From positions 1 to 21,633 of IMG/VR virus record IMGVR_UViG_3300030202_000859: a stretch of 21,633 nt of DNA; one strand, 5' to 3'. A program made the position numbers and the translations under genes. Source of the stretch: a virus. The notes beneath the pieces were generated by a model. That model saw only the letters and a list, made by a program, of their open reading frames with translations, was not told the origin of the DNA and searched no databases. Below, in pieces: positions 147-11,661 of the stretch. Numbering within the stretch: the first letter of the stretch is position 1; each line of letters begins with the position of its first letter.

Positions 147-2780
147 ATGTATTTTAACCCTTTAGACATTAGACGTATTATATATCCTAGAGCTTCTGGG
201 TTAATAACTTTTCAAGAAGGACCAGGGGGAATTAGTGAACAGGAAAAAGAACAGTATTTAGGAAATACAGGAGCACCAGGTGATGGAGGAGGATCTGATA
301 ATAATGTAGATACTGATCCTGTAGATCCACCAGAAAAGTTTACCTCTAGTTATCCTGAGTTAGCTGGACAAGAGTTTGCTACTGCAGCTGAAAGAGATGC
401 TGCAGAAGATATGGTTGATAGACAAAGAGAAGAGAAAAAAAGATTAGAAGAAGTAGAAGCAGATAGACAAAAAATGTCTGAAGATGCTAGAGAATTACAG
501 AAAAAACAATTAGAAGACCCTACTTCTCAAGTAACAACTCAAGATGTAACTACTGCAGATGCAGATGCAACTGGTACTTCTATTGCTACAGGCACTGGTG
601 AAGTAGGAGACATAGATAAAGTTACTGCACAAACTGCTGCTGAATCAGATGTAGTTGAGGAAATAAAACCTAAAGGCCCGAAATTAACTAAGATGGAATA
701 TGTACGTAAGTTAATGGCTGATGAAGGTTTAAGTATGGCTCAAGCAAGAGGAAAAGCTGATGGCACTGGACCAGGTTCTTTTTCAGCATACGGAATTGAA
801 TATGATAAAACTCCAGATCCCACACAAGCAGAAACTTACACAGCTACTTCAGTAGAAGATAAAGCTAGAACAGAAGCAGAAAAAGTAGTAGGTGCAGAAG
901 GTACAATATCAGAAGAGTCTAAAGTTGTAGCTGCGGAAGGTGAACTATCAGAAGATGCTAAGGCTAAAGGTGTAGACTTTGATCCAGAAAGGGTTAAAGA
1001 AATAGTAGCTGGTGAAAGAACTGTAGATTCAAAAGAATTAGCAGAAGCACAAGGACTAGATGAACAAGCAGTTAAAGCTTCTATAGCTGAAGCAAATGTT
1101 CCGGATAATATTGTTGCTGCTACTACTACTGTTAAACCAGAAGAGCTACCTACCCCTGCACAAATTGCTGAATCAGATATGGTACAAGCTGCTAATGTTA
1201 CAGATGAAGGTGGGTTAGATGCACCAGCAGTTGCTGCTAAACTAGCAAAATTTACCGTAGATTCTGAAACTATGGCTCAAGCTGCACAAGGTAATGTAGA
1301 TGCTCAGAGTACTATACAAGGGCAGTTAAGTTCTTTAATGCAGGACTTTAATGATGGCACTCCAGCATGGGCTGCAGGAGCTATAAGAGCTGCTAATGCT
1401 GCTATGTTATCTCGTGGCATGGGTGGCAGTACTATGGCTGCATCAGCTATATTACAGGCTGCAATGGAATCAGCATTACCTATAGCTCAACAAGATGCTC
1501 AAGTTTTTGCAACTATGAATATGCAAAACTTAAATAATAGACAGCAAGTTGCTTTATCTAATGCTGCTGCTCAACAAGGACTCGCATTACAAAACTTAAA
1601 CAATGAACAACAGGCTATGTTACAAAATAGTACTAATTCATTTGCCTTACAATCTCAAAACTTATCTAACGTACAGCAAACAACTTTAGCTAATGCACAG
1701 ATTAAAGCTGCATTGCAGGGTCAAAACTTGTCTAATCAACAGCAAGCAAATATAGTAGAAGCTGCTCGTTATGCTGAAGTATCTAATCTTAATCTAAATA
1801 ATAAACAACAAGGTATACTACAAGATAACGCTAATACTATGCAGATAGAAGTAGCAAATCTTAATGCTAAACAGCAAGCCTATGTCGTTAATGCTCAACT
1901 TGAAGCAGCATTACAAGGTAAACAAATAGATAATAAACAACAGGTAGCTATACAAAATGCTGCTCGTTTTGCTGATGCTAATAACCTAACCTTTACTGCA
2001 CAAGAACAAGCTAAGATAAATAACTCTGAGCTTATGAAGACCATAGGTCTAGCAGAACTTAGTTCAGAACAGGCAGCTACATTACAAAATGCTGCAGCTG
2101 TAGCATCAATGGATATGGCTAACCTATCTAATGAACAACAAGCTAAAGTAGCTAATGCTCAAGCTTTCTTATCTATGGATATGGCTAACTTAAGTAATGA
2201 TCAGCAGGCTACTATGTTTAAAGCTCAAGCTATGCAACAAGCATTACTATCTGATCAAGCATCAGAGAATGCAGCTAAACAATTTAATGCAAGTAGTGAA
2301 AACCAAACTAAACAGTTTATGGCTAACTTAAATACACAAGTACAACAGTTTAATGTTGCTCAAAAAAATGCTACTAATCAATTTAATGCTGGTGAAGAGA
2401 ATGCTGTTGCTAAATTTAATACAGAAATAGAAAATCAAAGAGATCAATTCAATGCTAAAAACCAGTTAGTAATAGCACAGGCTAATGCTGAGTGGAGACA
2501 AGGTGTTGAACTTACTAATACAGCAGCACAGAATGCAGCTAACGCAGCTGACGCACTAGCTTCAAATGCTATGACTCAAACTACTTTAGATGCAATATGG
2601 CAACGTGAAAGAGATATGTTAGACTATGCTTTTAAAGCAGCAGAGGGTGCAGAAAATAGAGCTTTAGAACTTGTACTTGCAGAAAAAACTGCTGAACAAT
2701 ATGCCGAAGCAAGAGCTGATGAAAATAGAACCTTTATGTATGCAACATTAGTAAAAACATTATTTGGTGGGATATTATAA
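147..2780 (+). CDS. Repeat-rich virion structural protein, 877 aa
   Basis: This is probably a virion protein, either an internal/ejection protein or a fibrous tail component. An AAGGA motif (132-136) lies 10 bases before the ATG. Residues 80-125 are charged and probably coiled coil. Residues 130-450 are acidic and Ala/Thr/Glu-rich. Residues 405-455 hold an Ala/Met-rich stretch with a RGMGGS element. Residues 460-701 are eleven contiguous 22-residue repeats with a consensus like xNLsNeQQaxlxNAxxxxal. Residues 708-773 are six 11-residue repeats of the form NxxxQFNAxxE, and the C-terminus is helical. The 11/22 periodicity is hendecad-like and predicts long right-handed coiled-coil rods. I recall similar Asn/Gln-rich repeat proteins in marine phages, but none with a proven function. 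It is first in the promoter-driven block and directly abuts the next gene. Confidence 0.85.
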   Translation: MYFNPLDIRRIIYPRASGLITFQEGPGGISEQEKEQYLGNTGAPGDGGGSDNNVDTDPVDPPEKFTSSYPELAGQEFATAAERDAAEDMVDRQREEKKRLEEVEADRQKMSEDARELQKKQLEDPTSQVTTQDVTTADADATGTSIATGTGEVGDIDKVTAQTAAESDVVEEIKPKGPKLTKMEYVRKLMADEGLSMAQARGKADGTGPGSFSAYGIEYDKTPDPTQAETYTATSVEDKARTEAEKVVGAEGTISEESKVVAAEGELSEDAKAKGVDFDPERVKEIVAGERTVDSKELAEAQGLDEQAVKASIAEANVPDNIVAATTTVKPEELPTPAQIAESDMVQAANVTDEGGLDAPAVAAKLAKFTVDSETMAQAAQGNVDAQSTIQGQLSSLMQDFNDGTPAWAAGAIRAANAAMLSRGMGGSTMAASAILQAAMESALPIAQQDAQVFATMNMQNLNNRQQVALSNAAAQQGLALQNLNNEQQAMLQNSTNSFALQSQNLSNVQQTTLANAQIKAALQGQNLSNQQQANIVEAARYAEVSNLNLNNKQQGILQDNANTMQIEVANLNAKQQAYVVNAQLEAALQGKQIDNKQQVAIQNAARFADANNLTFTAQEQAKINNSELMKTIGLAELSSEQAATLQNAAAVASMDMANLSNEQQAKVANAQAFLSMDMANLSNDQQATMFKAQAMQQALLSDQASENAAKQFNASSENQTKQFMANLNTQVQQFNVAQKNATNQFNAGEENAVAKFNTEIENQRDQFNAKNQLVIAQANAEWRQGVELTNTAAQNAANAADALASNAMTQTTLDAIWQRERDMLDYAFKAAEGAENRALELVLAEKTAEQYAEARADENRTFMYATLVKTLFGGIL
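1524..2249 (+). repeat. Eleven tandem 22-residue protein repeats
   Basis: Coding repeats within the 877-residue protein (residues 460-701). Each unit is exactly 66 bases long and there are no indels across eleven units. Units open with a variant of Q/A-N-L-(S/N)-N-x-Q-Q, and an NA dipeptide typically follows about six residues later. The DNA has diverged more than the protein pattern, so these are old repeats held by structure and not a recent duplication. Confidence 0.9.
2268..2465 (+). repeat. Six tandem 11-residue protein repeats
   Basis: Directly after the 22-residue series (residues 708-773) the period halves to 11 residues. Units include NAAKQFNASSE, NATNQFNAGEE and NAVAKFNTEIE. A Phe at position 6 and Asn at position 1 recur, giving one aromatic residue per hendecad turn. 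Confidence 0.85.
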
Positions 2781-3047
2781 ATGACAAAATTTAATTATGA
2801 AAGAACTTACAAAGCAGCAGATGCAGCTTATTATAGATTAGCGGAAAAAGATCCTTTATATAAAACATCTAAAAGAAAACAGTTAGATCCAGATCTAGGT
2901 AGTAGTACAGGACTAGCTAGAAGTCTTATGTCTTCACCAAAAAAACAAGATAACAGTGAAGAGTTAGGTGAACTAACTCTACTATACAATGAAATTAAAA
3001 GTAAAAATGAAGAATTAAAAAGTAATATAATATCTGGAGAGTCTTAA
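2781..3047 (+). CDS. Small protein of the virion block, 88 aa, unknown function
   Basis: A hydrophilic protein with a basic N-terminal third (Lys, Arg and Tyr-rich, up to KTSKRKQ near residue 33). A Ser/Gly linker follows, then a charged C-terminal half (residues 55-85) that looks helical. The ATG follows the TAA of the 877-residue gene with no gap, and a GGTGGGA stretch upstream may serve as ribosome binding site. Its stop overlaps the next start as TAATG. Its position between two virion genes suggests a minor structural or assembly protein. I recognise no family motif. Confidence 0.75.
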   Translation: MTKFNYERTYKAADAAYYRLAEKDPLYKTSKRKQLDPDLGSSTGLARSLMSSPKKQDNSEELGELTLLYNEIKSKNEELKSNIISGES

Positions 3048-3571
3048 TGATTAATCAACCAATACCAGGACAATCTTTAACAGCAGAACCTAAAGGTTAT
3101 CCTTGGGAAAATCCACCTAAATATGTAAAACCATTTGATGCAGCAATGTATCACTTAGAAGAATTAAATGAACCTAAAAAAATTACAGCTGCTTTAGATA
3201 TGTTAGAGTTAGATATAGATATGGTTACATTAGTAAGTGGTATACTTCGTGTGGGTGTTGCAAACGGTATACACACTGTTGATGTTAGTTTACTTATTGC
3301 ACCAGTAATACATGAATTTATTAAAGGTCATGCTGATAGAGCTGGTATAGATTATAATGAAGGTTTTGCTGAAGAAGATATGGATCGTACAGATTTAGAA
3401 TATACTATAAGACAAAAGAAATCAGAAAAACTTTTAAAGAAAATTAAAGAGCAAGATATGCCTGAAGCTATGTCTGAAGGTGTAGATAAAGATATGCCAC
3501 AAGATATACCTGAAGAAATGCCTGAGGCACAACCTCAAGGACTTATGGCTAGACAAGGGAGTGTTATGTAA
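3047..3571 (+). CDS. Conserved marine-phage virion-associated protein, 174 aa
   Basis: The N-terminus PIPGQSLTAEPKGYPWENPP and the core segment GIHTVDVSLLIAPVIHEFIK (about residues 74-93) match a pattern I remember as widespread in marine tailed phages of several morphotypes, whose function is unknown. Residues 1-105 appear folded and largely helical. Residues 115-135 are Lys/Glu-rich, and residues 135-174 are a low-complexity tail with recurring MPE/MPQ elements. The start overlaps the previous stop by one base (TAATG), and its own stop overlaps the next ATG the same way, so translation is probably coupled. A virion or assembly role is inferred from position. Confidence 0.78.
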   Translation: MINQPIPGQSLTAEPKGYPWENPPKYVKPFDAAMYHLEELNEPKKITAALDMLELDIDMVTLVSGILRVGVANGIHTVDVSLLIAPVIHEFIKGHADRAGIDYNEGFAEEDMDRTDLEYTIRQKKSEKLLKKIKEQDMPEAMSEGVDKDMPQDIPEEMPEAQPQGLMARQGSVM

Positions 3572-4731
3572 TGGGAGCTTGGAAAGGTATTTGGTTAGGT
3601 ATGCAAGCAGTTGAAGATGCTAAGTACAAAGGTATACAATTAGATCTTCAAGAAAGAAAGATGGCACTTCTTGAAAAGGAAGAAGAATTAGCAAGAGAAT
3701 TAAAAACTATGAAAGCTTTTACTTCAAGTTTTAATACTAAAATAACTAATCGTTCAGGTACAAAGTTAAATACTGCAAGTATAGATACTTATACAAAAGC
3801 TTTACATCAGTATTTACCTCCAAATATCGCTAGTAAATATATAGGTTTAAACAATCAAAAAGTATTAGATGATTTACTTGGTGTAATGCAGGACTATAAA
3901 AAACAACAATTTGAACAAGGTATTAATGAAGTTGATAAAGAAAAGTATGGAAAAATTTGGAATGGAACTCTTATTAATTCTGGTATGACTTATGATGCAG
4001 CTCAAGATTATATATTTAGTGCAGCTGAAAGTGCTGGTATTGATGTAACTAATCCAACATTTTTATCATGGAAAGAAAATGAAATAGAAAAGTTAACAAG
4101 AGGTTCTGCTATTATTGAACCTGAGTATTTAGTAGCTGATCTAAAAACAACAGAAGTTAAAAATGTACAAGACGACATTATAAAGACTTCTAAATTAACA
4201 ATAGATTCTATACTACAGAATCTGGATGCAACAAGATTAAGTCAAAATGAAGATGTAGTTAATAATGAAAACTTAACACTTAAGGGTACAATTAAACCAC
4301 ATATAAGGCAGGGTTTAGATAAAACAAGAAAAAGGCTAGAGCAGTTAAACGATGCACAAGTAATTGCTCTTACTTCGCCTGATATTTTTGCTAACAAATA
4401 CTCAGAACCTATATATCAAAATAATAATCAGTTAATAAACTTTAATCAAACTATAAAGGCTAATTCAATAACAATAGATTTAGCAGGAGATGCTATTACA
4501 GCACCAGACCCAAATGATCCTAGTAAAAGAGTTGTGACTGAGTATTCTTTTCATAAAAGTCCTACAGATAATCTTCTTCAATGGTATGTAGATTACTACT
4601 TAGCAACTGGTAAAAAATTAATACCAGAGGGTACAAGAATTAGAACAGTTGATAGTACTAATAATTACTTTTTTGCACCTATGATTTACCCTGAGGGTAA
4701 TATAAATACGATTTATCCTGAGGATAGTTAG
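3571..4731 (+). CDS. Putative virion structural protein, 386 aa
   Basis: Unrecognised family. The N-terminus (MGAWKGIWLGMQAVEDAKYK) is followed by an uninterrupted Glu/Lys/Leu-rich helix at about residues 20-50 that should form a coiled coil. The rest is a mixed alpha/beta protein with many Asn and Thr residues and no cysteine motif or catalytic signature that I can see. It overlaps the preceding stop by one base and lies two bases before the 1405-residue gene. In T7-type order this slot, next to the giant protein, is used by internal core proteins (gp14/gp15), so an internal virion or ejection protein is a fair but unproven guess. Confidence 0.75.
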   Translation: MGAWKGIWLGMQAVEDAKYKGIQLDLQERKMALLEKEEELARELKTMKAFTSSFNTKITNRSGTKLNTASIDTYTKALHQYLPPNIASKYIGLNNQKVLDDLLGVMQDYKKQQFEQGINEVDKEKYGKIWNGTLINSGMTYDAAQDYIFSAAESAGIDVTNPTFLSWKENEIEKLTRGSAIIEPEYLVADLKTTEVKNVQDDIIKTSKLTIDSILQNLDATRLSQNEDVVNNENLTLKGTIKPHIRQGLDKTRKRLEQLNDAQVIALTSPDIFANKYSEPIYQNNNQLINFNQTIKANSITIDLAGDAITAPDPNDPSKRVVTEYSFHKSPTDNLLQWYVDYYLATGKKLIPEGTRIRTVDSTNNYFFAPMIYPEGNINTIYPEDS

Positions 4732-4732
4732 A

Positions 4733-7700
4733 ATGGGTGCAACTAATATATTTGATCTTTACCCTCAGTTAAATAGAAATAAAACAAAAGAAGAAGAGAA
4801 AGAAAATATAACTCCTTCTCCTATAGAAGTACCTGAAGAAGTTATAATAGATTCTGTACCTGCAATAAATGCACCTACTAATATACATAACTTATTTCCT
4901 CAAATGAGAAATACTTCTACAGATAATACAGTTGAAGATAATATTGTAGAAACAAAACCTTCCCTACCACCAACTAATATACATGAATTATATAAAGATC
5001 AGATGAATATTGAATCTGGTCTTGTACCTAATTGGAAAACCCACAGTTTAAATAAAGGCATAGATGAAGAGTTTGATGGTAATCTAAATAGGTCTGTATA
5101 TGAGTCAATAAATGATCAATACTTAAAAGATCGTGGAGAAAAAGTTCCAACTGCTTTAATTAATATTAGAAAAATATTAAAAGAAAGGTATGGAATAGAT
5201 GAAAACAATCGTAAACTTACAGAAGAAATAATTTTTAAGGATAAAGATTTACGTAAAGTTGTAATAGAATATATGACAACTAGACGTAGACCTGGTATAT
5301 CTTTAACACCTCTTACTGGAGGATCTGGTTCTCTTTATAGTGGTGCGGATTTTAAACAAATGGAGTTTGCCAAAGTTTTTGAAATGTTTCAAAACAACCA
5401 ACGAGCTTTTGGTACACATGATGTAAGTACAGCAAATGAACTTGTCTTTAGTATGAACGCATCAGATACAGATAAACTTTCTTTAGGTGCAGGATATTTA
5501 TTGTTTAACCATATGGATAATATTTTTACTGGTGAAAGAACTAATAAAGAAATGTTTGATGGAATCTACGATTATGCTAGATACAGTATATTTTCACCAT
5601 CAACAGCGGCATCTTTTATGTTAGCTTACGGAAGTCCTATTGGTAAATTAATTGCCCAAGCAGAAACAAAAGCAGCTGGTGCAGCTGGTAAAAAATTAAT
5701 AACAGCTTGGCACAATAATTTAGTAAAGAATGGATTAACTAAAACTGCTGCAAGCGAATTAGTTGAATCAAAAATACTTAATGCTGCAAATTTTCAAGCT
5801 TTAATTTTACCTGAGATGGTGTTTAATACTGGCATTAATGCTGGCTATCAGCTAGGTCTTATCGAGACAGGTGTACAAGATTCGTTTAGTAAATTAGATA
5901 GTGGAATAATAGCACTTGGAACTCTTCTTGTACCGTTAGGGGTTGTTGGATTTTCTAATTTAGTTGCTAAAGGTAGACAAGGACCACTTAAAAAAACTTT
6001 TTTAGGTTATGAAAAACTTGATAAAGCTTGGGTAAGAGCTGGTCAAGCAGGAATAATTAAACAATCTAGAAATGTAATAGGATCAAAAGCTGTAATTGAA
6101 GCAGTAATGAAAAACTTTAATCTTAAGTTTGGTAAAGATGGTAATCCTATTCCAAATTTAAAAGGTAAAAAAGCAGAAGACTTTATGTTATCTTGGAAAG
6201 AAACAAAAGAACAAGCTGCTTTAAATATAAAAAGACGTAAAGAAGAATTAACAGATGATGATATAACTACAATGTTTTTTACTCATTTTTGGTTAGGTTC
6301 TAAAGATGGAAAAACAAAAGGATACTTTGACATACTACTAGAAAATGGTTATGCTATTCATAGGTCACAGCTAGATGGAAAAGGAGGGACTACTAATGCT
6401 CTTTCTCAAGCAATAAAACTTTTACCTATACAGGTTCAAAGAGGTATTGTAAAAGAGTTTGAAAGTTCTACAGGTTTAAAGTTAAACTTTATGACTGCTG
6501 GACAAAAAACACAAACTCCTACAAGTTTAGCAAGCCACTGGGTAAAAAGTGTATCTAGATCTGGTAGTAATCTATGGCTCGTAGGTGAATTATCTAAACG
6601 ATCAAAAGCTTTAGCCGGTGCTAGTAGAAAAGAAAGACTTGGATTATTACTTGCACCTCATGATTCAACAGGGGGAGCAAAAAGATTTCAATTCGGTTTA
6701 AGCTTTGGTAAAAAATTAGTAACATCTCATTATGCAACCACTGCTGCAAATATAAAAGGTTATGGGTACTTAACTTTTTTAAATGGACTAGGAGAAATAG
6801 CTACCGGTGTTCTTGACCTTAGTTCTGGTGCTGGAAGACGATTAGTCGGTAATACTGTTAGAGCAAAGCAACATTTTGATGAAGGTTTTACAAGTATAGG
6901 AAGTGCTGTCAATAGGGGTTTAACTATATTAGATCCACAAATGTCTTTTAACAGAGCAAAGGCAGTACTTGAACTAAGTCCAGAAGCAGAAAAAAGATTA
7001 TGGAGAAACATATCTGGAGCAGGTGATGCAGCAGATCCTTTAAAACAATTTAATATAACTCCTGAAACTACATCTTGGTTAGGGGAAAAATTCTTTAAAG
7101 GTTTAAATATCGGTTCTTCAGCTTTACAAGCAGCAACCTTTATTAAGGTGCAAGATTATATGACAAAGATAATTTCTTTTGAAGCAAATATGTCAAGAGA
7201 AATAGGTAAACATTATAGGATGAATGCTAATAAATTTTTTCAACAAGCAGACTCTGCTACAATAGTAGTAAGTAAAGACTTCCAAGATAATGTTGTTATG
7301 CCAGCAATAGAACAAACTTTAAATGATGTTGTATCTCAATCTTGGCAAATAAGAGCTAAGAATACAAAAACTTTAATGGCTCAAATTGCAAGTTTTGTTG
7401 AACAAGCTTCAAATAAAACTATATTAGGTGTACCAATTCCTTTTGGTAGTTTTGCTAATAGTGTTATGCAACATACAGGTAACTATACAGGTGTAAATTA
7501 TTTAAGACGTAAGGCACATAGATTAACTAAATACAAATGGCTTAGTCCAGGTGGTAAAAAACCAGGGGATTTAATAAATTTAAACGACCCAAGTGATATA
7601 GAATTAGCTGGAAAAACTTTAGGTTTTGCTGGAATGATGTATGTAGGAGTGTATGGTTTACCTGGTCAAGAACAAATTACAGGTGAAGAACCTAAAGGAG

Positions 7701-8950
7701 CACTCTGGAGAGTTCAAAATGGTTATAGATGGAATCAACAACCTGATGATCAAGGTGGTATAAAAAACTTAAGATATGAATGGCCTTTATCTTTACAACT
7801 AATAACTTCTCAAATGGCTGCTCATAGAGCTTTAGCTAAGTATGAAGAAGACGATTTAAGTTTTAATGGTATAGAAGATTTATATAACTATGCTAAAGAA
7901 GTTGGAACTGGAAAAGCAGTTGGTGATGCAACTAGTAGTTTAGTTAAAGGTATACCTAAACATTTATGGAAAGATTTTTATGAACAACTTGGTGCAACTA
8001 ACTTCAGAAGTTTAACTAAAACTACAAATTCTTTTGGGGATATGTTTAATAACTTAATGTTTGAAGGAGATCTAACAGAAATTATAAATATACCTATGAC
8101 TATAGGTACACAATACGGTCAATTTTTAACAAGACCTCTTGATCCTATTAATCAATTTAGTAAAATACTTTGGGGTGAAAATCAAAACAATGATTTAAGA
8201 CAAACTCATAGTTCTGTGTTAGGTGCTAATTTAAATTATAATAATATGTTTAAATATATTGATGGAATATTACCTGATAAATATCTTCCAAAAGGTGTGA
8301 GAGAAGCTCAAGTTAGAGAGTCTGCTATAAAAGAACCATCTTATGATGTAGGTAGATTAGTAGGAATAAGGTCTGATGTTGTACCTCAGCTTTTTGAAAA
8401 ACTTTTAAATTCTGCTGGAATGAGTGAGTATTTTACCATACAAAAATTTGATGGTCCACCAGAGGTACAAAATTATTTAAATAAAGAAATAAGAAGAGAG
8501 TTAAATTACGCTACTAAAGATTTACTTGAAAATAAATTTAGAGGTGTAGATTTTTCTAGCTTAAATTTACAAACACAACAAAGTGCTGTAAAATGGGTTG
8601 CTAAAAAGGCTAGAAAAGAAGTTATGGACCAGTTAAATAGAGCAGGTCCAAAAGAATATTTAGTAGCAAATCAACTTTCTACTGAAGGCAGAGAAAATTT
8701 TAGGGCTGGTGTAAAAAAATATAGAAAAATATATCCAGGTATTATACCTGAGGCTAGTGCTAGAGTTACTAATGCACAAGTTATAGGTATGATATTATCA
8801 GCTAACAAAGATAAACCTGCAATAGAAGTACTAGAGATATTAAACGATATTAAATCCTATATAAATGATTATAAAAAATTAAAGGAAAATATAGGAGATG
8901 AAGATGGAATTTCTATAGATAAACTATTAATGGAAAGTAGAAGAAACTAA
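4733..8950 (+). CDS. Giant virion protein, probable gp16-like DNA-ejection protein, 1405 aa
   Basis: The longest gene in the window and the last of the virion block. By size and place it corresponds to the large internal core/ejection protein of T7-like phages (T7 gp16 is about 1300 residues). That assignment is by analogy and not by a recognised motif. The disordered acidic N-terminus carries three copies of a short motif: TNIFDLYPQ (residues 4-12), TNIHNLFPQ (49-57) and TNIHELYKDQ (81-90). Residues 100-280 look globular. Residues 285-415 are Ala/Gly/Leu-rich and include a hydrophobic stretch at 390-411 that could insert in a membrane. A second short hydrophobic stretch lies near residue 965. 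The remainder is a long mixed region. I found no transglycosylase or peptidase signature. The stop TAA overlaps the stop of the convergent gene. Confidence 0.82.
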   Translation: MGATNIFDLYPQLNRNKTKEEEKENITPSPIEVPEEVIIDSVPAINAPTNIHNLFPQMRNTSTDNTVEDNIVETKPSLPPTNIHELYKDQMNIESGLVPNWKTHSLNKGIDEEFDGNLNRSVYESINDQYLKDRGEKVPTALINIRKILKERYGIDENNRKLTEEIIFKDKDLRKVVIEYMTTRRRPGISLTPLTGGSGSLYSGADFKQMEFAKVFEMFQNNQRAFGTHDVSTANELVFSMNASDTDKLSLGAGYLLFNHMDNIFTGERTNKEMFDGIYDYARYSIFSPSTAASFMLAYGSPIGKLIAQAETKAAGAAGKKLITAWHNNLVKNGLTKTAASELVESKILNAANFQALILPEMVFNTGINAGYQLGLIETGVQDSFSKLDSGIIALGTLLVPLGVVGFSNLVAKGRQGPLKKTFLGYEKLDKAWVRAGQAGIIKQSRNVIGSKAVIEAVMKNFNLKFGKDGNPIPNLKGKKAEDFMLSWKETKEQAALNIKRRKEELTDDDITTMFFTHFWLGSKDGKTKGYFDILLENGYAIHRSQLDGKGGTTNALSQAIKLLPIQVQRGIVKEFESSTGLKLNFMTAGQKTQTPTSLASHWVKSVSRSGSNLWLVGELSKRSKALAGASRKERLGLLLAPHDSTGGAKRFQFGLSFGKKLVTSHYATTAANIKGYGYLTFLNGLGEIATGVLDLSSGAGRRLVGNTVRAKQHFDEGFTSIGSAVNRGLTILDPQMSFNRAKAVLELSPEAEKRLWRNISGAGDAADPLKQFNITPETTSWLGEKFFKGLNIGSSALQAATFIKVQDYMTKIISFEANMSREIGKHYRMNANKFFQQADSATIVVSKDFQDNVVMPAIEQTLNDVVSQSWQIRAKNTKTLMAQIASFVEQASNKTILGVPIPFGSFANSVMQHTGNYTGVNYLRRKAHRLTKYKWLSPGGKKPGDLINLNDPSDIELAGKTLGFAGMMYVGVYGLPGQEQITGEEPKGALWRVQNGYRWNQQPDDQGGIKNLRYEWPLSLQLITSQMAAHRALAKYEEDDLSFNGIEDLYNYAKEVGTGKAVGDATSSLVKGIPKHLWKDFYEQLGATNFRSLTKTTNSFGDMFNNLMFEGDLTEIINIPMTIGTQYGQFLTRPLDPINQFSKILWGENQNNDLRQTHSSVLGANLNYNNMFKYIDGILPDKYLPKGVREAQVRESAIKEPSYDVGRLVGIRSDVVPQLFEKLLNSAGMSEYFTIQKFDGPPEVQNYLNKEIRRELNYATKDLLENKFRGVDFSSLNLQTQQSAVKWVAKKARKEVMDQLNRAGPKEYLVANQLSTEGRENFRAGVKKYRKIYPGIIPEASARVTNAQVIGMILSANKDKPAIEVLEILNDIKSYINDYKKLKENIGDEDGISIDKLLMESRRN

Positions 8951-9756: not shown

Positions 9757-11661
9757 TTAGGCACTGATGTCTACAATTTCACACACCTCGCCAGTGCAAG
9801 CAAAGGTTTGTGATGACTTAGTTGTGTCTTCAGCTTCAAACTCTGATAGCTTAGACCAGTCAATTTTATTTGGCATAATACTTTTTAATATCTTATAATC
9901 ATTCTTGTTGCAATCCTGATAAGGTGCTTGTTGGTATATATGATCATCGTGTGGTAAAAAAGATACACCACTTATCTCATCAAAGTTTTCCCAAACAAAC
10001 GCCTGTACAGGTATCCATTCTCCTTTCTTAACTGATATTGTAACAGATGGTTTGTGTTCTGTCCAGTGTCTTTGATAAATTAACCACATATTTAATTGCT
10101 CAATAGCAGTCATATCATTTCTTGTTACTGATTTAGGTGGTGCTTGTACAGGAAAACTAAAGATAGTTGTACTGTCTTCCTTTCCAATAGCAGGTTCAGA
10201 TGGTATACCTTGAGCTTTCATAAACTCTGTTAAAGGATCATTGTTATCTGCTCTTACTGTACGTATGTAGTATGGTGAGTGCCTGGCGTGTATTCCAGAT
10301 GCACTATCTACAAGTTGACTCACTGTACCACTAGGTTTAACACAAGTAATAGCGGTAGAAATAGGTATATCTAAACGCTTTGCCCATTCAGCATTTGTTT
10401 TAATAGCAATACTCTTTAGATGCTCTAATGTTTTACTTAAGCCCTTGTTTGCTGAAGTCATGAGAGGGTTGTCCATAATACCTGTAAGGCTCACACCAAG
10501 TAGCCTTTCTTCTTCTGTATTGTTTTGCCATATCTTACGTAGGTATGGAAACTTAGTATAGGTAGACTGAATAGTACCTAGTATAGTAGCAAGTCTAACT
10601 TTATTTGCTAAAGAATCAAGATTATCTGTTGCTCGTATAACCACCTCAGTAAGGTTACAGAATTGATATGGCCTTAGTATTATTTCACTGCAAGGATTAG
10701 TACCAAAGTCATGTTCAATATCTCTTCTACCATTCTTAGCAGCTTGAGCTTTACTTGCCTGTCTATTAAAGATACCACGCTCTCCACTACCTGATGCCTT
10801 TAATGCAGCCCACTCTCTCATCAATGCATCCTCGTCAGGTTTTTCAGTATAGCATACTGAGTTATTAGATAACTGACGTTGCCCATTTAGTTCCCAAAAG
10901 TTTCCATCTTTTGCGTGTCTCATTCTATCATCAGTAAGGTTAGATAGTGATATCATTGCTGACCTACGTACACCACCTACAACTACTACCTCTCCTATCT
11001 TACACATAAGATCATGACACTCAATAGAGTTAAGTTTTCTTCTCTGGGCATTCGTAAAGATACTAACAGTAAAATTAAATAGATCAATTAGTGGAGCAGG
11101 TCCGGATGCCCTGCCACCAAACGTCTTAAGACGAGCACCAGCAGGCCTAACGAGAGTTGTGTCCCACTTGGGTATCTCACCTGCATACAGCAAGGCTATA
11201 ACCTGTCTGAGGGCTTTAGACCACCCTTCCTTACTATCTTTAACGACAATAGTCGTATCACTATCAAATAACTCTGGTACTTCAGGTAGTTTATTTATGT
11301 ATTGACGCTCAACACTGAAGCCTACACCTGTACCACAGAGTAGTATAAACATAGCTTCATCAAAAGATTTGACATCATCTACTGGTAGATAACTACAGTT
11401 GTACATACAAGTATTGTCTCTGTTTGCAGCTGCACCAGCAGTCATAAGAGATCTCATGCTAGGCATAACATCAAGATTAAGTATAGCTTCTTCTAATTGT
11501 TTAGTAACTTTTGAATTAGAAGATAGTGGCTTTACTACATTATCTATATACCTACTTACTGTTTCAGGCCAGCTTTCCCTACGGTTTTCTTCTTCTACCC
11601 ACCTTGCATATCTTGATGTGTGAATGAATGATTGGTAGTCTGTTGGTAACATATTACTCAT
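9757..11661 (-). CDS. nrdJ: Adenosylcobalamin-dependent (class II) monomeric ribonucleoside-triphosphate reductase, 634 aa
   Basis: Reduces ribonucleotides to deoxyribonucleotides using a thiyl radical generated from B12. All expected residues of the Lactobacillus leichmannii-type enzyme are visible. The NPCSEI loop holds Asn322, the radical-bearing Cys324 and Glu326. Cys335 (FCNLTE) lies 11 residues later, and Cys89 (NCSYLP) is its likely redox partner. The C-terminal CTGEVC (Cys622/Cys627) is the swinging thiol pair. The protein is shorter than the bacterial enzyme (about 740 residues) but looks complete. An AAAGGA site sits 8 bases before the ATG, which overlaps the previous stop as TAATG. 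In phages such enzymes supply dNTPs for rapid replication. Activity would require adenosylcobalamin from the host. Confidence 0.96.
   Translation of the reverse strand: MSNMLPTDYQSFIHTSRYARWVEEENRRESWPETVSRYIDNVVKPLSSNSKVTKQLEEAILNLDVMPSMRSLMTAGAAANRDNTCMYNCSYLPVDDVKSFDEAMFILLCGTGVGFSVERQYINKLPEVPELFDSDTTIVVKDSKEGWSKALRQVIALLYAGEIPKWDTTLVRPAGARLKTFGGRASGPAPLIDLFNFTVSIFTNAQRRKLNSIECHDLMCKIGEVVVVGGVRRSAMISLSNLTDDRMRHAKDGNFWELNGQRQLSNNSVCYTEKPDEDALMREWAALKASGSGERGIFNRQASKAQAAKNGRRDIEHDFGTNPCSEIILRPYQFCNLTEVVIRATDNLDSLANKVRLATILGTIQSTYTKFPYLRKIWQNNTEEERLLGVSLTGIMDNPLMTSANKGLSKTLEHLKSIAIKTNAEWAKRLDIPISTAITCVKPSGTVSQLVDSASGIHARHSPYYIRTVRADNNDPLTEFMKAQGIPSEPAIGKEDSTTIFSFPVQAPPKSVTRNDMTAIEQLNMWLIYQRHWTEHKPSVTISVKKGEWIPVQAFVWENFDEISGVSFLPHDDHIYQQAPYQDCNKNDYKILKSIMPNKIDWSKLSEFEAEDTTKSSQTFACTGEVCEIVDISA

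Follow-up and report, generated by a model that had tools for sequence, protein, structure and literature searches.

We analysed the first 21,633 of the 25,487 bases of the virus record IMGVR_UViG_3300030202_000859, here called the window, in which an open reading frame (ORF) on the plus strand at positions 147-2780 encodes a repeat protein of 877 amino acids. Among the homologues of this protein an 11-residue register was fixed despite the variable length of the repeat array, and in the main clade the length of the domain changed almost only by whole blocks of five 22-residue units, i.e. by 110 residues. By sequence comparison the protein is a homologue of gp25 of the podovirus HMO-2011, the product of the first gene of a cassette with a layout like that of genes 14-15-16 of T7.

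In the window the array consists of eleven 22-residue units without any gap (residues 460-701, positions 1524-2249), as an earlier note on this DNA had stated. The coordinates given there were right and the period was far above that of shuffled sequences: the identity at lag 22 was 0.35, as compared with a mean of 0.112 in shuffles (sd 0.020, z 11.7), while the highest value in 5000 shuffles was 0.186, and 0.239 when any lag from 5 to 60 was allowed in 1000 shuffles. The array is followed by six 11-residue units of the type FNAxxENAxxQ (residues 702-767, positions 2250-2447), the number of which is essentially constant in the main clade. At lag 11 the identity over residues 702-779 was 0.328 and 0.102 (sd 0.036) in shuffles. 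Residues 702-778 form seven 11-residue stretches that continue the register of the 22-mers. Since 460 + 11 x 22 = 702 and the 11-mers continue from 702, residues 460-778 make up a single 11-residue register. In the passage from 22-mers to 11-mers the register thus stays the same, and only the distinction between the two 22-mer halves disappears. The hendecads that had been placed at residues 708-773 are real, but they represent another phase of the same register and not a separate one. The repeats had also been called exact, which applies to the length of the units but not to their sequence: no pair of the eleven 22-mers exceeded 64% DNA identity, and Tandem Repeats Finder detected only 1.9 copies at the array. 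The label 'virion protein' given in the note was an assumption.

The array is flanked by two conserved blocks, in which we placed anchors by hidden Markov model (HMM); the distance from anchor to anchor is referred to as the span. The block before the array (N-block, residues 386-459, positions 1302-1523) was recognised from invariant alignment columns with the pattern P-x-W-A ... GSS/GST ... E-S-A-L-P-I-A and is predicted to be helical, with block means of 57-83 in the predicted local distance difference test (pLDDT). The block after the array (C-block) was defined by HMM and lies, together with the C-terminus, in residues 768-877 (positions 2448-2777), where AlphaFold2 (AF2) predicted long helices at low confidence. 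The N-terminal region (residues 1-370, positions 147-1256) varies in length among the homologues, with 155-1153 amino acids between the first Met of the ORF and the N anchor.

Homologues were collected in scans that each returned the best 80 of up to 600 stretches, with search patterns mostly within the N-block; the samples are therefore non-random. The first sample comprised 136 loci, including phages 7-11, PVA1 and H6/1 as yardsticks; both HMM blocks were found in 132 of them, giving 118 distinct cores. Three further scans yielded a second sample of 209 loci, 205 with both blocks, and after repeats of first-sample proteins or of its own had been dropped 113 new distinct proteins remained, the clade of which was assigned by length and not by tree. 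In the first sample the span ranged from 136 to 653 residues and was 4 modulo 11 in 117 of 118 cores. The same was true for 113 of 113 proteins in the second sample, so that the register was kept in 230 of 231 distinct homologues. The single off-register protein (L091) was 2 residues short near unit 25. Flank lengths covered all classes modulo 11 on both sides of the span (110 upstream lengths, counted from the first Met of the ORF, and 118 downstream lengths). None of the 32,863 residues in the 118 spans was a proline. The strong constraint against indels that had been proposed from the window alone is thereby borne out.

The main clade of the first sample contained 103 rows. Spans of 213 (40 rows), 323 (41), 433 (10), 543 (4) and 653 (3) correspond to 6, 11, 16, 21 or 26 units followed by the constant hendecad part, and the remaining rows had spans of 202 (3), 334 (1) and 651 (1). 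Hence 98 of the 103 rows fell on the series 213+110n. The hendecads stayed constant while the number of 22-mers changed, and no main-clade array with 8 or 14 units was encountered. When rows were chosen by a length of at least 200, the 110-residue series held 98 of 106 in the first sample, the 106 including three rows of span 301 that do not belong to the main clade. In the second sample it held 108 of 112, which gives 206 of 218 in total; the other four of the second sample had a span of 202. Six of the seven 202 arrays were without the 11 residues directly before the first unit, whereas the start of the seventh (L271) was normal.

Changes between length classes were counted on quick trees, from which the variable part was left out; recombination between arrays could inflate these counts. 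At least 24 changes were required on the 118-row tree with all lengths and 17 on the 103-row tree, or 14 when the classes 202, 334 and 651 were merged into their neighbours. A 213-row tree required at least 25, or 22. Two arrays, L066 and L091, did not keep the register in the 103-row tree and were omitted from the 213-row one. All 6-unit arrays formed one clade. Eight pairs of a longer and a shorter array were compared. In six of them the additional five units lay side by side as a single run; the pair L079/L115 had two five-unit runs, and for L015/L100 the five extra units came out dispersed in the alignment. In the long arrays five distinguishable unit types recurred.

These steps hint at a structure that can be extended solely by whole blocks of five repeats. 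The most probable explanation is that a structural period comprises five units, so that only a change by whole periods would leave the domains at either end correctly placed relative to each other.

To describe the unit itself we pooled 1072 units from the rows within the 22-residue register. Position 4 was Ser, Asn, Asp or Thr in 96.8% of the units, as compared with 18.9% at position 15, which corresponds to it in the other half of the unit, and 28% overall; these residues are typical helix caps. Position 7 was Gln in 89.5%, position 11 was Leu, Val, Ile or Met in 98.4%, and Gly was richest at position 22 (17%). An all-helical structure was predicted in both of two AF2 runs. In run 2 (75 sequences, monomer) each of units 2-11, ten in succession, had a new helix beginning at its position 5; the pLDDT block means there were 60-78. 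The hydrophobic power of the 22-mers of the window was 17.9 at a period of 3.667, against 111.9 at 2.2 and 141.5 at 2.76, which is not the single stripe of a hendecad. We read this as two opposite hydrophobic faces, with the peak at 2.2 as an alias of half the helical period. The breaks in AF2 run 2, the N-cap signature at position 4 and the two opposite faces together favour a stack of single-helix units over an unbroken helix for the 22-mers, as far as a monomer model can tell. In the hendecad part the power peaked at 3.68 (38.4), second to 2.2 (55.7), and this part fits a long helix better than the 22-mers do.

Several observations weigh against a stack of single-helix units with a period of five. 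One main-clade array (L066, span 334) holds an extra 11-mer within the array, which is awkward for a helix-turn unit, and outside the main clade the rule of five fails, with 2-4 and 8-9 called units. In the 11-unit arrays similar unit types return at lag 3, so unit type is not strictly tied to phase modulo 5. An up-down hairpin solenoid would be flipped by steps of five. Confidence in the AF2 model was moderate as well: run 2 reached a pLDDT of 63 and a predicted template modelling score (pTM) of 0.40, with helices and turns of varying length (8-20 residues, mostly 13-20, and 2-9 residues, mostly 6-9), and run 1 (19 sequences) gave longer helices at a pLDDT of 52.

Three other explanations were weighed for the array. 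A continuous hendecad coiled-coil rod, in which each chain is one unbroken helix, several chains are wound together and the 11-residue register maintains the phase of the core, would agree with the strict register that continues across both parts, the lack of proline, the 3.68 peak of the hendecad part, the longer helices of AF2 run 1 and the extra 11-mer tolerated by one array. A cap residue every 22 residues with Gly enriched at the unit end, power that is weak at 11/3 and strong at 11/5, and helix breaks about once per unit in AF2 run 2 speak against it, and it leaves unexplained why the steps are of 110 residues rather than 11 or 22. We consider such a rod rather unlikely; the continuous right-handed coiled coil put forward in the earlier note is disfavoured for the 22-mers. 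The same note had suggested a molecular ruler for capsid or tail length, in line with the constraint on the register. Using record length as a proxy for capsid size in the first sample, we found no correlation with array length among 26 records of 50-60 kb with a span of at least 200 (including the three rows of 301; rho -0.04, p 0.85), although the unit number ranged from 6 to 26 within them, nor among all 35 records (rho -0.20, p 0.26). By arithmetic, 26 units as one straight helix would measure about 86 nm. The comparison of repeat number across homologues, which had been proposed as a check, therefore makes a ruler of virion size very improbable.

The steps of 110 residues could also be a matter of history, if an early duplication of five units was followed by unequal exchange or swapping of arrays between phages that moved only this block. 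We regard this as doubtful but quite possible. The protein identity at lag 5 was the highest of all lags in the 21-unit arrays (0.386, 4 rows) and the 26-unit arrays (0.447, 3 rows), and the sole lag-5 pair of the 6-unit arrays was also the best (0.403, 40 rows). On the DNA level the lag-5 means were 0.49-0.54 in seven arrays of 21 or 26 units and were top among the listed lags in six of these seven. On the other hand, no unit pair was more than 73% identical in DNA within the ten arrays checked, which excludes a recent duplication in those ten. In the 11-unit arrays (41 rows) lag 3 (0.359) and others exceeded lag 5 (0.304), yet none of 8 or 14 units turned up in the main clade. The exact five-unit step between the 6- and 11-unit arrays, moreover, is a single event on the tree.

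Searches with the model and the sequences gave few leads. Foldseek of the model against the PDB returned nothing at E <0.9. The structural look-alikes that VIA listed from the PDB were mainly designed helical repeats and other helical proteins, with a best Z of 8.5; phage ejection proteins were absent among the 50 listed, which excludes nothing. In BFVD five matches at E <0.001 and 23-41% identity appear to be members of the same family, and their names were uninformative. Sequence searches of the PDB with the repeat protein, with the 1405-residue protein encoded further along the cassette (see below) and with profile A1 gave noise only. Matches to prions in the PDB at E 0.5-1 were read as an effect of N/Q-rich composition. 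A lipid-binding 22-mer of the apolipoprotein type was set aside because the charges are few and two opposite faces were seen.

By tblastn the repeat protein matched 27 phage records, all below 60% identity, with an E value of 9e-58 to HMO-2011. The leading matches were a spring-water Caudoviricetes genome and HMO-2011-type phages of Roseobacter, SAR116 and SAR11 hosts; more distant members came from phages of Rhizobium, Sinorhizobium, Vibrio, Aeromonas and Pseudoalteromonas. The homologue in MW202701.1 (L001 8350-10941) is annotated as 'huntingtin', which is probably an automatic label; huntingtin is an alpha-solenoid protein. Among the matches listed in a scan of genome contigs one was kept, PAZU01000016.1 (L136), from a metagenome-assembled genome (MAG) labelled Euryarchaeota, which we read as probably a binned phage contig.

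The window protein itself matched no PHROG or Pfam family, PF13884 included. Two distant relatives match a PHROG family annotated 'DNA ejection protein' and for this reason a role inside the virion, in ejection, is our best guess. PHROG 4287, the family in question, was matched by two of eight relatives scanned (CRP-212 and CRP-738), and PHROG 6121 'virion structural protein' by three of the eight, CRP-3 (361 residues), CRP-212 (356) and CRP-738 (C-terminal part only). The large partner in the cassette points in the same direction: that of HTVC033P (L039 10715-14896) contains the polyvalent-protein domain LPD38 (Pfam E 1.3e-23), and phage polyvalent proteins are injected with the DNA. The large partner in Slicky01 matched 'virion structural protein' families, and the other four large-partner homologues scanned had no convincing match. 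The genes for ejection proteins are described as a late cluster whose last ORF is very large (PMC8954989), and the cassette of the window has this layout. About as likely as not, the repeat protein belongs inside the virion of an HMO-2011-type podovirus, as the product of the first gene in its ejection cassette, and has an alpha-helical repeat domain.

Other results count against this role. The matches to PHROG 4287 rest partly (CRP-212) or wholly (CRP-738) on a C-terminal Peptidase S74 part that is absent in the window protein, and CRP-738 also has a weak match to a long-tail-fibre profile (E 0.003). No homology was detected by hhalign to T7 gp11-16, P22 gp7/20/16/1/10 or the ejection-region proteins of phiEco32, 7-11 and H6/1; the probability was at most 0.9% for all 18 proteins, controls included, and with single-sequence targets the power of this comparison was low. 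Ejection proteins are often matched by synteny only (PMC8954989). Virion mass spectrometry or cryo-electron microscopy of any member of the family was not found. A legend to maps of RCA phages names internal virion protein D with the gene unspecified (PMC6918029).

A further explanation is an outer tail fibre or appendage with the repeat as its shaft. Tail fibre genes are annotated upstream in several records, and an S74 chaperone, known from fibres, ends three of seven relatives scanned (CRP-738, L041; CRP-212, L043; CRP-3, L040), one of which gave the weak fibre match mentioned above. However, the same relatives match ejection and head-type PHROGs more strongly, and the S74 part also matches annotated DNA ejection or injection proteins, those of Salmonella 7-11, Vibrio PVA1 and Pseudoalteromonas H6/1. 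The gene, furthermore, immediately precedes the late cassette. We therefore find a fibre unlikely. A protein of the ejection cassette whose helical part contributes to a channel is the best-supported role, with about an even chance of being correct; the fixed register and the rule of five stand whatever the role.

From gene order and family labels, such an ejection protein would be packaged in the head, leave it ahead of the DNA and help to build a channel through the host envelope. Its middle part is predicted to be an alpha-helical repeat domain. Going by the moderate-confidence model, each 22-residue unit would most likely be one helix, capped at position 4, with a short turn to the next; the units may stack into a solenoid-like rod that passes into a continuous helix of 11-residue repeats.

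Downstream of the repeat gene the cassette continues on the plus strand. An 88-residue protein for which no family was found (2781-3047) is followed by a protein of 174 residues (3047-3571), which was matched in all eight cassettes compared (blastp E 4e-8 to 1e-31). Among the neighbours in the cassette the latter, starting with PIPGQSLT and containing PWE, is conserved best; it has an imperfect 12-base repeat at its end (3453-3525). The next protein, of 386 residues (3571-4731), takes by gene order the place of T7 gp15 and P22 gp20; at the blastp sensitivity used it was matched in none of the eight cassettes. The last and largest gene (4733-8950) encodes 1405 residues with one very hydrophobic segment (KD19 1.97 at residue 392). 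Its product is homologous to that of CRP-9 gp36 (blastp E 4e-41), and CRP-9 was the only one of the eight cassettes in which it was matched at that sensitivity. In the records compared the usual order after the repeat gene is at least one small gene, a gene for about 165-200 residues, a mid-sized gene and a very large gene, and place and order are kept in HMO-2011 and in the CRP, HTVC, CHOED, Slicky01 and Rhizobium phages. Extra genes are inserted in the cassette of the HTVC phages, and HTVC033P has additional genes after the large one. In HTVC115P an annotated toxin-activating lysine-acyltransferase gene (L004 10987-11436) is inserted directly after the repeat gene. Shortly upstream of its repeat gene, HTVC033P has two genes for 2OG-Fe(II) oxygenases and one for a putative ferrochelatase (L039 5142-7256). 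On the minus strand of the window, at 9757-11661, there is by eye a ribonucleotide reductase-like gene, near the place of the reductase of HMO-2011.

Phages of the HMO-2011 type count among the most common marine phages described. The family presented here is new in detail but not in kind, as it is apparently a podovirus ejection-cassette protein; within the open-licence PMC literature we found neither a description of these repeats nor virion proteomics of the HMO-2011 group. An array of 6-26 units that changes almost only by fives is a rare natural experiment and leads to a sharp, testable structural prediction. It also turns the length of an ejection-type component into a variable that can be compared across phages. 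One speculative reading of the array, which we hold to be quite improbable, is a new alpha-helical superhelix with five single-helix units (110 residues) per turn, possibly a sleeve or spring surrounding the DNA, in which changes by whole turns would tune the channel to the host.

Compared with known systems, the window protein is closest to HMO-2011 gp25 and to the same gene in Roseobacter CRP, Pelagibacter HTVC and Vibrio CHOED phages, which are homologous, occupy the same place in the cassette, and carry 22- and 11-residue repeats in the same register; they are annotated as hypothetical. HMO-2011 and seven of ten CRP phages measured have 6 units and the window 11, while CRP-3, CRP-212 and CRP-738 have 3 units and, unlike the window protein, the added S74 chaperone. 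The cassette is like gp14-gp15-gp16 of T7 and gp7-gp20-gp16 of P22 in the order and place of the genes, with the largest gene last, but no sequence homology to the ejection proteins of T7 and P22 was detectable. The first cassette proteins of these two phages are about 180-240 amino acids long (PMC8954989), whereas that of the window has 877 and contains the repeats. De novo designed helical repeat proteins (DHR) are among the best look-alikes of the model, and with Z at most 8.5 these and other helical repeats are within the noise for helical models, so no relation is implied. Repeats of the apolipoprotein type are 22- and 11-residue helix repeats and share with the window array the relation 22 = 2 x 11; in contrast to them, the array has few charges, no proline and an N-cap residue every 22 residues.

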